Below are positions 28,220 to 32,690 of a DNA stretch of 64,000 nucleotides, piece by piece. Both the position numbers and the translations under genes were made by a program. Origin of the DNA: Catenulispora acidiphila DSM 44928 (GTDB taxonomy: Bacteria > Actinomycetota > Actinomycetes > Streptomycetales > Catenulisporaceae); the NCBI RefSeq assembly GCF_000024025.1, contig NC_013131.1, positions 8,164,229-8,228,228 of the forward strand, written 5' to 3'. The notes under the pieces are model-generated. The model was not told the DNA's origin, did not search any database, and worked only from the letters and a program-made list of their open reading frames with translations. Every line of letters begins with the position of its first letter. The stretch's first letter is position 1.

Positions 28220-29401
<1,182 letters not shown>

Positions 29402-29538
29402 AGGAACGGCCGTACGGCCTTTGATCACTCTCCTGTCTCCGTGTCGCCTCCATGCTAGCCCGCACCCCCGCGACCAGGGCGGGAGATTTTGCCCGCCACC
29501 CCTTTTCGTCATCCTGACGCTATGCTAGTCTCAGAGCC

Positions 29539-29561: not shown

Positions 29562-29589
29562 CGGAGACGACCTTGAGAAGGCGATGGCC

Positions 29590-30690
29590 ATGGGCAGCGG
29601 ACGCTGGGATTACAACGCATACGAGGCGGCGGAGGCCTACCGCAAGGCCAGCGGCCGCAGCGCCTTCGACTACAACGACCGGGTGCTCAGCCGCACCCCG
29701 CGCAACCAGTGGCGCGCCCACCCCGACCTTGAGCCGTACGGCGTCGGCGTCCGCGAGAGCCGGGACAGCGCCGAGCACCCGACCTCCTTGGCCATCTCCG
29801 TGCTGTTCGACGTCACCGGCTCCATGGGCGGGGTCCCCCGGGTGCTCCAGACCAAGCTCGGCGACCTGCACGGCCTGCTGCTGCGCAAGGGTTACGTCGA
29901 CCACCCGCAGATCATGTTCGGCGCGATCGGCGACGCCTACTCCGACCGGGTGCCGCTGCAGGTCGGGCAGTTCGAGTCCGACAACCGCATGGACGATCAG
30001 CTCGGCGACATCGTCCTGGAGGGCGGCGGCGGCGGGCAGATGCGCGAGTCCTACGAGCTGGCGATGTACTTCATGGCCCACCACACCGCGCTGGACTGCC
30101 ACGACAAGCGCGGCAAGCGCGGCTACCTGTTCATCATCGGCGACGAGATGCCCTACCCGAACGTCAACCCCCAGCAGGTCTCGCGCCTGCTCGGACCGAG
30201 CGCCGGCCGGGGCGGCCAGGCCGGCCGCGCCGAGCGCCCCGGGCGTGGCGGCCGCGGCGGCTCGGCGACCGTCCCGATCGAGGACGTGGTCCGCGACCTG
30301 ACCCGCAAGTTCGACGTCTACTACATCCTCCCGGAGGGCTCCTCCTACGTCGGCAACGACGAGGTTCTCGGCGCCTGGCGCGCCCTGCTCGGCCAGAACG
30401 TCATCCAGCTCGACGACCTCGACGCGGTCTGTGAGACCATCGCGCTGACCATCGGCCTGGCCGAGGACCGCATCGACCTCGACGGCGGTCTGGAGGACCT
30501 GCGCGACGTGGGATCGCGTGCGGGCGGCTCGGTGGAGCGCGCGCTGGGCGGCCTGGACACCCGTCGCAGTGGCCGCCGCCCCAGCCGGCACCACACCACC
30601 GCGGACCCGGCGGTGCGGTACCTGCGGTCCCAGGGCGCTGACTATTCGTATGACTCCGGGTACGACAACCGCCCCGAAAGCCGTTGGTAG
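29590..30690 (+). CDS. VWA-domain protein paired with PurA-like enzyme
   Basis: 366 residues. The MIDAS motif is DVTGSMGG at about 75-82 (D-x-T-G-S rather than D-x-S-x-S), inside ISVLFDVTGSMGGVPRVLQT. Further VWA elements are MFGAIGDAYSDRVPLQVGQF and RGYLFIIGDEMPYP. A Gly/Arg-rich insert lies at about 200-222, and the C-terminus is basic and Tyr-rich. No membrane segment, so cytoplasmic. The N-terminus (RWDYNAYEAAEAYRKASGRS) is unlike common VWA proteins. ATG 29590 is 8 nt after AGAAGG; ATG 29584 is possible. The PurA-like gene follows after 32 bp, and the pair is probably one operon. Confidence 0.82.
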   Translation: MGSGRWDYNAYEAAEAYRKASGRSAFDYNDRVLSRTPRNQWRAHPDLEPYGVGVRESRDSAEHPTSLAISVLFDVTGSMGGVPRVLQTKLGDLHGLLLRKGYVDHPQIMFGAIGDAYSDRVPLQVGQFESDNRMDDQLGDIVLEGGGGGQMRESYELAMYFMAHHTALDCHDKRGKRGYLFIIGDEMPYPNVNPQQVSRLLGPSAGRGGQAGRAERPGRGGRGGSATVPIEDVVRDLTRKFDVYYILPEGSSYVGNDEVLGAWRALLGQNVIQLDDLDAVCETIALTIGLAEDRIDLDGGLEDLRDVGSRAGGSVERALGGLDTRRSGRRPSRHHTTADPAVRYLRSQGADYSYDSGYDNRPESRW

Positions 30691-30722
30691 AAGAGCACCT
30701 TCCCTCCAGAGAGCACCCCGCA

Positions 30723-32075
30723 ATGGACCTGATCGGCATGAAGCACGCGATCGTGGTGGACCTCGGATACGGCGACGCCGGCAAGGGCTCGACCGTGGAC
30801 TGGCTCTGCTCCCCCGGACACGCCGAACCCCGCGCCGCCTCCCGGATCCGCGCCGTCATCCGCTTCAACGGCGGCGCGCAGGCGGGGCACAACGTGATCA
30901 CCCCCGACGGCCGCCACCACACCTTCGCGCAGTTCGGCGCCGGCACGTTCCACGGCGTGCCGACGCACCTGTCCCGCTTCATGCTCGTGGAGCCGTTCGC
31001 CCTCGCCGCCGAGGCCGCGCACCTGGCCGAACTCGGCATCGGCAACCCGTTCGCCCTGCTGTCGGCGGACTCCCGCGCGCTGATCACCACCCCCTACCAC
31101 CGTGCCGCGAACCGCGTGCGCGAATCGGCCCGGGACCGCACCCCCGGGTCGGCCCGCCACGGGACCTGCGGCATGGGGATCGGCGAGACGGTCTCCTTCT
31201 CCCTGGCCGTCTCGCCCGATAAGCCACCGCGCGTGGGCGACTGCCGGGACCGCGCGACGCTGGTCAGGAAGCTGACAGCACTGCGCGCCCGCATCGCGGC
31301 GGATCTGGAGCTGTCCGGGCTGCGGCTGCCGGCGGACCTGCCGAGTCCGGAGTTCTGCGCGGACGTCTACCAGGCGTTCGCTCAGCGCGTGCGGATCGTG
31401 GACGAGGAGTGCAGCGGATACCTCGCCGCGCTCCTGGACTCCGGGCCCTGCGTCTTCGAAGGCGCGCAGGGCGTGCTGCTGGACGAGTGGTACGGCTTCC
31501 ACCCGCACACGACCTGGTCGACGACCACCTTCGCCAACGCCGAGGAGTTGCTGAAGGAGTCCGGCCAGGAGACCGGCAACGCGGCGCGCCTCGGCGTGGT
31601 CCGCACCTACAGCACCCGGCACGGCGCCGGGCCGTTCGTCCCCGAGGACGCGGCGCTGGCCCCGCACCTGCCGGAGCCGCACAACGAGACCGGAACGTGG
31701 CAGGGGGCGTTCCGGATCGGGCACTTCGACGCGGTGGCGCATCGCTACGCGCTCGACGTGTGCGGCGGCGCCGACGCGCTGGTGGTCACGCACGCGGACG
31801 CCCGGGCGGACGGCCGGCGCCTGTGCCGGGCCTATCAGGCCTCGGCGGACGTGCCGGCGATGGAGAAGCTGCCGCGCAGCCTGATGCCGGACCTGGACTA
31901 TCAGCGGCTGCTGACGAAGACCGTGTCGTCGTGCACGCCGGTGTACGACGACGGTCCGCGGGACCAGCGCGACTGGCCGGACGTCATCGAGGAGGCGCTG
32001 GGGACGCCGGTCGGGGTGGTCTCCTCGGGCCCGACGTGGCGCGAGAAGGCCGCGCGCCTGCCCTGCGCGAAATAG
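30723..32075 (+). CDS. Divergent adenylosuccinate-synthetase paralogue
   Basis: 450 residues of the PurA fold. Kept: P-loop VDLGYGDAGKGSTVDWL with the catalytic Asp (about D18), FNGGAQAGHN with the catalytic His (about H56), GTCGMGIGET, VFEGAQGVLLDEWYGFHP, and TYSTRHGAGPFVPED. Changed: the L-aspartate-binding loop, normally an arginine-rich GATTGRRR-type segment, reads GTWQGAFRIG at about 324-333, and the guanine-recognition TKxD reads THAD. It may still use GTP, but is probably specific for something other than aspartate and IMP. It cannot be assumed to be the housekeeping purA. Likely co-transcribed with the VWA gene. Confidence 0.85.
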   Translation: MDLIGMKHAIVVDLGYGDAGKGSTVDWLCSPGHAEPRAASRIRAVIRFNGGAQAGHNVITPDGRHHTFAQFGAGTFHGVPTHLSRFMLVEPFALAAEAAHLAELGIGNPFALLSADSRALITTPYHRAANRVRESARDRTPGSARHGTCGMGIGETVSFSLAVSPDKPPRVGDCRDRATLVRKLTALRARIAADLELSGLRLPADLPSPEFCADVYQAFAQRVRIVDEECSGYLAALLDSGPCVFEGAQGVLLDEWYGFHPHTTWSTTTFANAEELLKESGQETGNAARLGVVRTYSTRHGAGPFVPEDAALAPHLPEPHNETGTWQGAFRIGHFDAVAHRYALDVCGGADALVVTHADARADGRRLCRAYQASADVPAMEKLPRSLMPDLDYQRLLTKTVSSCTPVYDDGPRDQRDWPDVIEEALGTPVGVVSSGPTWREKAARLPCAK

Positions 32076-32124
32076 TGCGCGTGCAGGACAGGCGCGGGAG
32101 GCTGTGCGGCAGCCGCCGGGAGCT

Positions 32125-32179
32125 ACTCAGGGAGTTGCTCAGGGAGTTGCTCAGGGAGTTGCTCAGGGAGTTGCTCAGG
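32125..32179. repeat. 12-bp tandem repeat, over four copies
   Basis: GCTCAGGGAGTT repeats four times (first copy ACTCAGGGAGTT) plus a 7-bp remnant, with another stray copy near 32200. It fills the 194-bp gap between the convergent PurA-like and HIT genes. Nothing else is recognised in that gap. Confidence 0.85.
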
Positions 32180-32269
32180 TACCGAGATGCGCCGGGAGTG
32201 ACTCAGGGAGTTGCCCCGGCGCCCCGGTAGTCAGAGGTCGCTCAGGAAGCTGCTCCGGCGCCGCGGTCC

Positions 32270-32632
32270 TCAGGTCCCGAAGTGCGCGAGGAAGTCACCG
32301 CCGAGCACGTGCGCGTGCACATGGAACACCGTCTGCCCGGCATGCGCGTCGGTGTTGAACACCACGCGGTAGCCGCCGTCCGCGATCCCCTCCGTCTTCG
32401 CCACCTCGCGCGCCTCGAGCAGCACGGCGGCGGCCAGCTCGGGCGCGCCGAAGGCGAGCTCGGCGGCGTTGGCGTAGTGCGCGCGCGGGACGATGAGGTC
32501 GTGGACCGGAGCCTGCGGGTTTATGTCTTTGAAGGCGAGCGTGAGGTCCGTCTCGCGGACCACCGTCGCCGGGATCTCGCCGGCCACGATCTTGCAGAAG
32601 AGACAGTCGGGTTGGGGTTGGCCGTCGGCCAT
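32270..32632 (-). CDS. HIT-family nucleotide-binding protein (HinT-like)
   Basis: 120 residues with CLFCKIVAGEIPATVVRETD at the N-terminus and the histidine triad TVFHVHAHVLGG. The family hydrolyses AMP-linked phosphoramidates such as acyl- or lysyl-AMP; it is often the Hint branch. The cytoplasmic protein is a likely homodimer. Two adjacent ATGs (32632 and 32635) follow GAGGAGG; 32632 has the better spacing. Divergent from the DMFase-like gene. Confidence 0.93.
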   Translation of the reverse strand: MADGQPQPDCLFCKIVAGEIPATVVRETDLTLAFKDINPQAPVHDLIVPRAHYANAAELAFGAPELAAAVLLEAREVAKTEGIADGGYRVVFNTDAHAGQTVFHVHAHVLGGDFLAHFGT

Positions 32633-32690
32633 CATGTCCTCCTCGGGCGCCCCGTTGGTGGGGGCTTTTCCGGCGATAGGCTACGGCACC

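Follow-up and report, generated by a model that had tools for sequence, protein, structure and literature searches.

The window analysed here, a stretch of 64 kb (64,000 nucleotides) from the chromosome of Catenulispora acidiphila DSM 44928 (contig NC_013131.1, positions 8,164,229 to 8,228,228), carries at 29590-32075 two neighbouring genes, one encoding a VWA protein and the other a paralogue of PurA, the adenylosuccinate synthetase (AdSS). An original prediction, made from the DNA letters, held that the two genes form a pair and that the PurA paralogue had lost its aspartate-binding loop. Both open reading frames (ORFs) lie on the plus strand where it placed them, with 29590 favoured as the first start, and the motifs it described (GDAGKG, QAGH, FEGAQG, GTWQGAFRIG and THAD) are all present. 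The features of the pair are listed below; MIDAS is the metal ion-dependent adhesion site of VWA domains, and IMP is inosine monophosphate.

29584-30690, + strand: ORF of the VWA gene, likely start 29590; beta-I type MIDAS, PHROG 2971 family
29590-29607, + strand: N-terminus M-G-S-G-R-W, nearly invariant in the family, low model confidence
29809-29823, + strand: MIDAS motif DVTGS (D76-S80)
30022-30048, + strand: Gly-rich loop ending in Glu155
30142-30147, + strand: Asp187-Glu188, with the MIDAS Asp
30574-30690, + strand: variable linker and C-terminal R-W tail; R-L at the end in 93/181 rows
30723 (ATG) to 32075 (stop), + strand: PurA-fold gene of a non-canonical family
30771-30788, + strand: phosphate loop GDAGKG, Asp13 equivalent kept
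30867-30890, + strand: NGGAQAGH, with Asn38 (IMP contact) changed to Gln and catalytic His41 kept
31161-31187, + strand: GTCGMGIGE, with Thr129 (IMP contact) changed to Cys
31455-31472, + strand: FEGAQG, Gln224 kept
31602-31634, + strand: RTYSTRHGAGP, with Val273 (IMP contact) changed to His
31680-31715, + strand: HNETGTWQGAFR, the remodelled aspartate loop; Arg303 absent, Arg305 changed to Phe, T300-T301 changed to W-Q
31788-31799, + strand: THAD in place of TKxD; Lys331 changed to His, Asp333 kept

The start at 29590 is likely the true one because the VWA family alignment begins at the third codon of ORF 29584-30690 (M-G-S-G-x-W). The PurA-like gene has an alternative, longer frame from a TTG at 30684 that overlaps the VWA stop.

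The two genes travel together, in soil actinobacteria as well as in large phages. We took the best 80 of at least 538 genome relatives found with the VWA query and the best 80 of 265 viral relatives, and searched them with profiles built from our own alignments. All 80 genome loci carried the VWA gene and 79 the PurA-like gene, the exception (L042) being a contig that ends 146 bases past VWA; 79 of the 80 viral loci likewise had the PurA-like gene, and the single miss was again at a contig end. In the viral pairs the PurA-like gene was always on the VWA strand (79/79), within 300 bases in 58 of them and at most 2.7 kb away, and the viral contigs carrying these relatives reach 416 kb. Of 394 genomes sampled from the class, 41 matched the VWA profile (E 1e-20) and 40 the PurA-like profile (E 1e-80); every one of the 41 VWA-positive genomes proved to be paired, 40 on one contig. 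The genome behind the difference of one, G573, was read directly and has NUDIX, kinase-like, VWA and PurA-like genes, and in another, G637, contig ends fall between VWA and PurA-like. Direct reading of 30 of the 40 PurA-like places found VWA adjoining in all 30. Across 296 genomes of the phylum, VWA occurred in two, and the same two alone had a PurA match above 213 bits. With 41/41 class genomes, 79/80 genome loci and 79/80 viral loci paired, a chance neighbourhood can be rejected, and the pair is conserved across genomes, as the original prediction would have it.

Among public phages, VWA was found in 208 records (189 Mycobacterium, 10 Rhizobium, 6 Vibrio and 3 others) and PurA matches in 227, some of the latter being low-identity bacterial-type PurA. 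Passages of one paper list a VWA protein and an adenylosuccinate synthase for Vi01-like phages (PMC10892097). No Vi01-like phage appeared in our organism count for VWA, the two Salmonella records among the organisms listed for PurA matches were bacterial contigs, and the family profiles gave no match in the 49 kb examined of Vi01 (157 kb). Clustering the neighbours of the 80 viral loci revealed no constant extra gene, the largest cluster covering nine loci. In 9/80 viral loci (for example L212, 3910-4662) a neighbour cluster lies at a median of 24 bases past the module, and its one member tested against Pfam is an R2K-clade ATP-grasp protein. In Rhizobium phage RHph_TM40 (L008, 2578-4253), phosphoribosyltransferase-like and nicotinamide mononucleotide adenylyltransferase/NUDIX genes stand a few kb before the VWA-PurA pair.

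The PurA-like protein has the AdSS fold and belongs to a non-canonical family. Pfam PF00709 matched it with 190.2 bits over model positions 1-411 of 416, and its AlphaFold model (mean predicted local distance difference test, pLDDT, 83.3; predicted template modelling score, pTM, 0.88) is predicted to follow AdSS 1iwe across the whole chain (Z 36.4, 395 residues, 2.5 Å), with residues 319-331, the remodelled aspartate loop, under pLDDT 50. However, it scored below both NCBIfam AdSS equivalog cut-offs (142.7 against 402 and 115.8 against 395.55 bits) and far below the PurZ cut-off (26.1 against 300 bits). In a tree of 76 rows, 60 of them a subset of the 177 rows of the PurA-like family, a branch with support 100/99 divides this family from canonical PurA, PurZ and a kinase-PurA row. 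The viral rows occupy several deep places within the family, and the bacterial rows form an alphaproteobacterial set and a mainly actinobacterial one, the latter together with mycobacteriophages and a Variovorax row. This would fit phage modules captured by bacteria; with branches this long and supports this low, no firm statement can be made.

The residues that separate the family from canonical PurA lie in its substrate pockets. We compared 98 rows from bacteria and named phages and, separately, 79 viral rows, using E. coli PurA numbering transferred through the Salmonella PurA row. The count of 98 omits duplicates or a cut copy (L002, L023 and L033), and three loci (L032, L042 and L098) gave no PurA-like row above the score filter because of a contig end or split frame. 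Identical sequences were kept in the counts; 171 of the 177 rows are distinct and give the same picture. Unchanged in 98/98 rows were D13, K16, H41, Q224, T239 and R272, and D333 was kept in 97. This kept set serves GTP (guanosine triphosphate) and phosphoryl transfer to the lactam oxygen. In the aspartate loop, by contrast, T300 had become Trp in 94/98 rows and T301 Gln in 98/98, Arg303 was absent from every row, and position 305 was always hydrophobic (F 86, W 4, L 3, V 2, I 2, M 1), so that 298-303 reads [W/F/Y]QG in most rows. The altered loop that the original prediction pointed out is a trait of the whole family. R306 was kept in 97/98 and K331 had changed to His in 93/98. Outside the loop, N38 was Gln in 97/98, T129 Cys in 97/98 and V273 His in 98/98; Arg was retained at R143 in a single row of the 98, where D, a gap or E is commonest and the alignment is loose. 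The 79 viral rows agree closely, with greater variety at position 129 (C 48, V 27, T 4) and at position 300 (W 32, F 27, Y 10); at 273 they have His in 76 with 3 gaps, and none of the 76 rows with a letter at 305 has Arg. Substitutions fixed or nearly so in 98 plus 79 rows, 171 of them distinct, are more than chance.

Among titles of solved structures, hadacidin, an aspartate analogue, is named in 1cg1 (K16Q) and 1cg3 (R143L) and not in 1cg4 (R303L). For the Helicobacter pylori AdSS, passages of PMC11276676 place the aspartate loop at 289-294, the IMP contacts at Arg135', Asn37, Gly119, Thr121, Thr230, Val264 and Arg294, and the contacts to guanosine diphosphate at Asp12-Gly16, Thr41, Lys322, Asp324 and Ser400-402. 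Our own mapping of these to E. coli by constant offsets gives a loop of 298-303 and contacts R143, N38, G127, T129, T239, V273 and R303. Set against the row counts, and as far as those passages go, five of the seven IMP contacts are changed (N38, T129, V273, R303 and R143). Judged by the alignment, then, the IMP pocket is remodelled too, beyond the aspartate loop to which the original prediction had pointed. In E. coli PurA, according to passages of PMC8342488, R303 balances the IMP 2'-oxygen and interacts with free aspartate, and the PurZ of phage phiVC8 has K267 in its place. The residues lost from the family are those that contact aspartate, the IMP phosphate and the side of the ribose (functions drawn partly from passages of PMC11276676 and PMC8342488 and partly from general knowledge). 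The PurA-like protein thus shares with canonical PurA the whole fold and Asp13, Lys16, His41, Gln224 and Asp333, whereas the aspartate loop, five of seven IMP contacts, the equivalog scores, the separate branch and the VWA neighbour set it apart.

We suggest, with slightly less than even confidence, that the PurA-like protein is a GTP-driven ligase joining a purine-like lactam to an amine that is not aspartate, with the VWA protein as its partner or substrate carrier. It would activate a 6-oxo (lactam) purine-like acceptor by GTP phosphoryl transfer, as AdSS does; the activated acceptor, which would not be plain IMP, would then be joined to the amine.

Another close known system is the phage PurZ, or 2-aminoadenylosuccinate synthetase, which is also a phage-borne PurA paralogue and, in its phiVC8 row, is without an Arg303 equivalent. 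The PurA-like protein might by the same logic still be an aspartate-using succino-ligase acting on a modified nucleotide, with Asp bound through the remaining Arg and Gln301. Some large phages make modified nucleotides, the module is common in large phages, and D13 and H41 are kept. From the passages on it, moreover, PurZ uses Asp without Arg303. However, the phiVC8 row keeps Arg305, N38 and T129, which the PurA-like family has lost, and the change at T300/T301 separates the two as well. PurZ (the phiVC8 row, and S-2L from passages) has Ser at the Asp13 position, which is Asp in 98/98 of our family; the PurZ model score falls well short, as given above; the phiVC8 row sits on the canonical side of the tree, on a long branch; and when the neighbours of the 80 viral loci were clustered, an unsystematic look by eye at the 22 largest clusters recognised no DNA-modification gene. 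We consider an aspartate-using enzyme of this kind unlikely, and a plain PurZ or Z-genome enzyme is rejected by the missed PurZ cut-off, the different active site and the separate branch. The name '2-aminooxy adenylosuccinate synthetase' is attached both to phiVC8 PurZ and to mycobacteriophage PurA-like genes (NC_021348, NC_031080 and other Bixzunavirus); on the Bixzunavirus genes it has probably been carried over from elsewhere and misleads.

The pair forms the core of a wider gene set, whose other members are a kinase-like protein with a J-domain and a NrtR-like NUDIX protein. Among the 80 genome loci, the J-domain kinase-like gene was present in 69 and a NUDIX gene in 75 by profile in the flanks (50 by clustering); the 80 viral loci had the kinase-like gene in 54 and the NUDIX gene in one. 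The kinase-like partner lies upstream in many loci and has an N-terminal J-domain, with HPD within the first 160 residues in 120/132, although the Pfam DnaJ match on the protein is below cut-off. Its kinase-like domain is recognised by Pkinase at E 1.4e-8 in ArcherS7. Pattern matching reads the HRD site as H-G-A in 81/132 and places 26 under no pattern; since it found HRD/HGD in just 3/132, pseudokinase is the most fitting name for the partner. The fourth component combines NUDIX with an NrtR winged helix (PF00293 + PF21906, four proteins tested), and a textbook Nudix box was seen in 30 of 55 clustered members. It shares its domain order with NrtR-like NUDIX regulators and differs from them in sitting with VWA-PurA. 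In these fuller loci the pseudokinase may serve to recruit Hsp70 and to offer a surface for regulation, and the NUDIX winged-helix protein may control the operon in response to a nucleotide signal.

TerY-P triads are VWA modules with kinases. MoxR-VWA pairs, in passages of PMC7824862, join VWA to an ATPase partner; both resemble the present module in placing a MIDAS protein beside a kinase-fold or nucleoside triphosphatase (NTPase) partner, whereas here the NTPase partner is a PurA-fold protein and the kinase a J-domain pseudokinase. The PurA-like protein might no longer ligate anything and instead be a GTP-switched regulatory or chaperone subunit for VWA and, where present, the pseudokinase, in the way that MoxR ATPases serve VWA co-chaperones. 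Its regular pairing with VWA and its remodelled substrate pockets fit such a subunit, and with HPD so common and HRD/HGD so rare in the kinase-like protein, chaperone and pseudoenzyme parts are already in the module. Against this, D13, H41, Q224 and T239, which serve acceptor chemistry and not GTP binding alone, are kept in 98/98 rows, and a protein that has given up ligation seems to us improbable.

The window itself holds no convincing profile match for the pseudokinase or the NUDIX protein, the two weak ones (17.6 and 16.5 bits) being far from the pair. Elsewhere in the genome no pseudokinase was recognised. A Rhodococcus pseudokinase query found nine weak matches (best E 1.4e-6), and eight of these loci, when fetched, either scored 27-46 bits or went unmatched with the family profile, for which the counted genome loci score at least 147 bits (cut-off 140) and viral members reach down to 73 bits with a wider profile. 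An Embleya query found none, though it had no positive control in that genome. A diverged pseudokinase copy may therefore exist elsewhere. A stand-alone relative of the NUDIX-winged-helix protein (61% identity) lies at 8578195-8578965 on the same chromosome, about 382 kb from the pair; it scores 316 bits against 363-433 for operon members, has no module gene in the surrounding 15 kb read, and may be a relocated or separate copy.

The VWA protein is recognised by one of the four libraries asked (Pfam, PADLOC, NCBIfam and PHROGs): Pfam and NCBIfam found no family in it, and PHROGs assigned it to phrog_2971, of unknown function, at E 3.6e-63. PADLOC returned no family for either the VWA or the PurA-like protein, and a known anti-phage family was rejected. 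Of the sequence searches of solved structures with VWA proteins, one found none and the R. opacus query gave one weak match (E 0.19). The AlphaFold model (pLDDT 76.4, pTM 0.80) is predicted to match an integrin beta-I domain (Z 14.9, 185 residues, 2.9 Å), by which model a beta-I-like VWA fold is confirmed for the protein at 29590-30690. The alignment has 181 rows (L002, L023 and L035 left out), of which 175 are distinct and show the same picture, and it bears out a metal site as originally supposed, the complete MIDAS being kept: D76 in 181/181, T78 in 180, S80 in 180, E155 in 181 and D187 in 181. Glu155 is presumably part of the MIDAS, judging from integrin beta-I domains. A metal together with an acidic ligand probably sits in the MIDAS, and the probable task of VWA is to present or recruit either the acceptor or the amine substrate. 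In some Mycobacterium phages (such as Grungle, LolaVinca, CharlieB and Quasimodo) the VWA match is in two pieces over about 1.6 kb, and in two records the VWA-matched stretch is annotated as an HNH endonuclease, as if a homing element lay inside the gene.

In the numbering of the longer ORF, the VWA N-terminus has M3 in 174/181 rows, G4 in 179/181 (with 2 gaps) and an aromatic residue at W8 in 178/181, giving a family pattern M-G-[SGY]-[GS]-x-[WFY] with Gly in all 179 rows that cover the position. The Gly count comes from one column of the alignment, for which the viral frames ran from one stop to the next; a separate count that picked starts followed by Gly is biased toward Gly. The near-invariant N-terminus and the C-terminal tail look like binding tails. 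A bolder reading is that VWA itself is the amine donor: its N-terminal Gly, bared by methionine removal, would attack the activated purine and yield a nucleotide-labelled VWA. Near-invariance of this end despite its disorder in the model (pLDDT 34 for residues 1-10), the lost aspartate pocket and the tight pairing all speak for it. A conserved N-terminus can, however, serve burial or partner binding, the model is a monomer built from 42 sequences, and we know of no PurA-fold enzyme that acts on a protein; we think self-donation by VWA decidedly improbable. Put more broadly, and as much of a long shot, the module could be a protein-labelling system, spread by large phages and kept in chromosomes, in which the PurA-fold ligase places a purine nucleotide on the VWA Gly or on a protein brought by VWA and the pseudokinase.

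Several points tell against the proposed ligase with a non-aspartate donor. Since phiVC8 PurZ, in the passages on it, uses aspartate without an Arg303 equivalent, the absence of Arg303 alone does not prove that aspartate is unused, and the Arg at column 306 (97/98), in a poorly modelled loop, could shift to bind a carboxylate. With His at 331 in 93/98 rows, GTP itself is not certain, and the variation of the viral rows at 129 and 300 means that the family lacks a uniform acceptor side. The strong correlation between the VWA and PurA-like distance tables (r = 0.94, n = 176 loci; maximum of 999 permutations 0.19) speaks for the pairing but in part reflects shared ancestry, and the PurA-like rows include near-copies (171 of 177 are distinct). 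Neither the pseudokinase nor the NUDIX gene lies beside the window pair, so the core cannot need them in place. Finally, the pairing, the near-fixed substitutions, the retained catalytic residues, the folds and the extra partners are observed, and we infer the ligase chemistry, with the reaction, its ligands and the role of each partner.

Searching the open-access literature, we did not find the VWA-PurA pairing described (parts only), most subscription papers lying outside that search; a passage of PMC9476963 names PurA-like and serine/threonine kinase genes and no more. What seems new is the module; its component folds are already known. It occurs in 41/394 sampled class genomes and 265 related viral stretches, and we found no function described for it. 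It would represent an AdSS-fold branch in which the activation chemistry is retained and both reaction partners have changed; if this is true, it would bring to light a purine ligase, a signal nucleotide or a protein modification of a new kind. With a core of two genes here, it is open to reconstruction and direct testing in E. coli. Of the original prediction, the remodelled loop, the pairing and the metal site have stood and a second purA exists, while the coupling of an activated base to another donor is unproven.

In Catenulispora the two-gene core occupies a fixed position on the chromosome. The flanks of the pair in the window are:

28220-29512, - strand: phoH, named by eye
32270-32635, - strand: HIT gene, on the other flank

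The nearest named VWA relatives among the matches listed are those of Catenulispora rubra (84% identity, best segment) and C. pinistramenti (83%), and both share the neighbours, with PhoH and YbeY on one side and HIT and a DMFA2-like gene on the other. A sample of 60 genomes gave 12 VWA matches: the genome itself, nine of the same genus, another genome of the order (G036) and a weak one (G041, E 3.4e-4). Since VWA is present in 9/9 same-genus genomes of that sample, it is a standing chromosomal pair in Catenulispora. In 2-kb steps the GC content of the pair stretch is 0.684 and 0.724, within the window range of 0.677-0.738 and not distinct. A short tandem repeat with a unit of about 12 bases (by eye) lies at 32120-32180, directly 3' of the PurA-like gene.

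The genome also has a canonical purA at 305048-306298 (615.7 bits, against 190.1 for the window copy). The PurA-like gene is therefore not the only purA, and the original prediction, which would have lost its novelty had this been a sole purA able to complement a purA mutant, is not refuted on that ground. A third PurA-like stretch is the second part of a protein that begins with a P-loop kinase; this fusion protein has Ser at the Asp13 position, like phiVC8 PurZ. By eye, the chromosome at 574000-583000 holds a MazG-like gene, ImmA/IrrE plus macro-like genes, the P-loop kinase/PurZ-like PurA fusion and a DUF7002 protein, a row that is possibly a bacterial nucleotide module of the PurZ/MazZ type.

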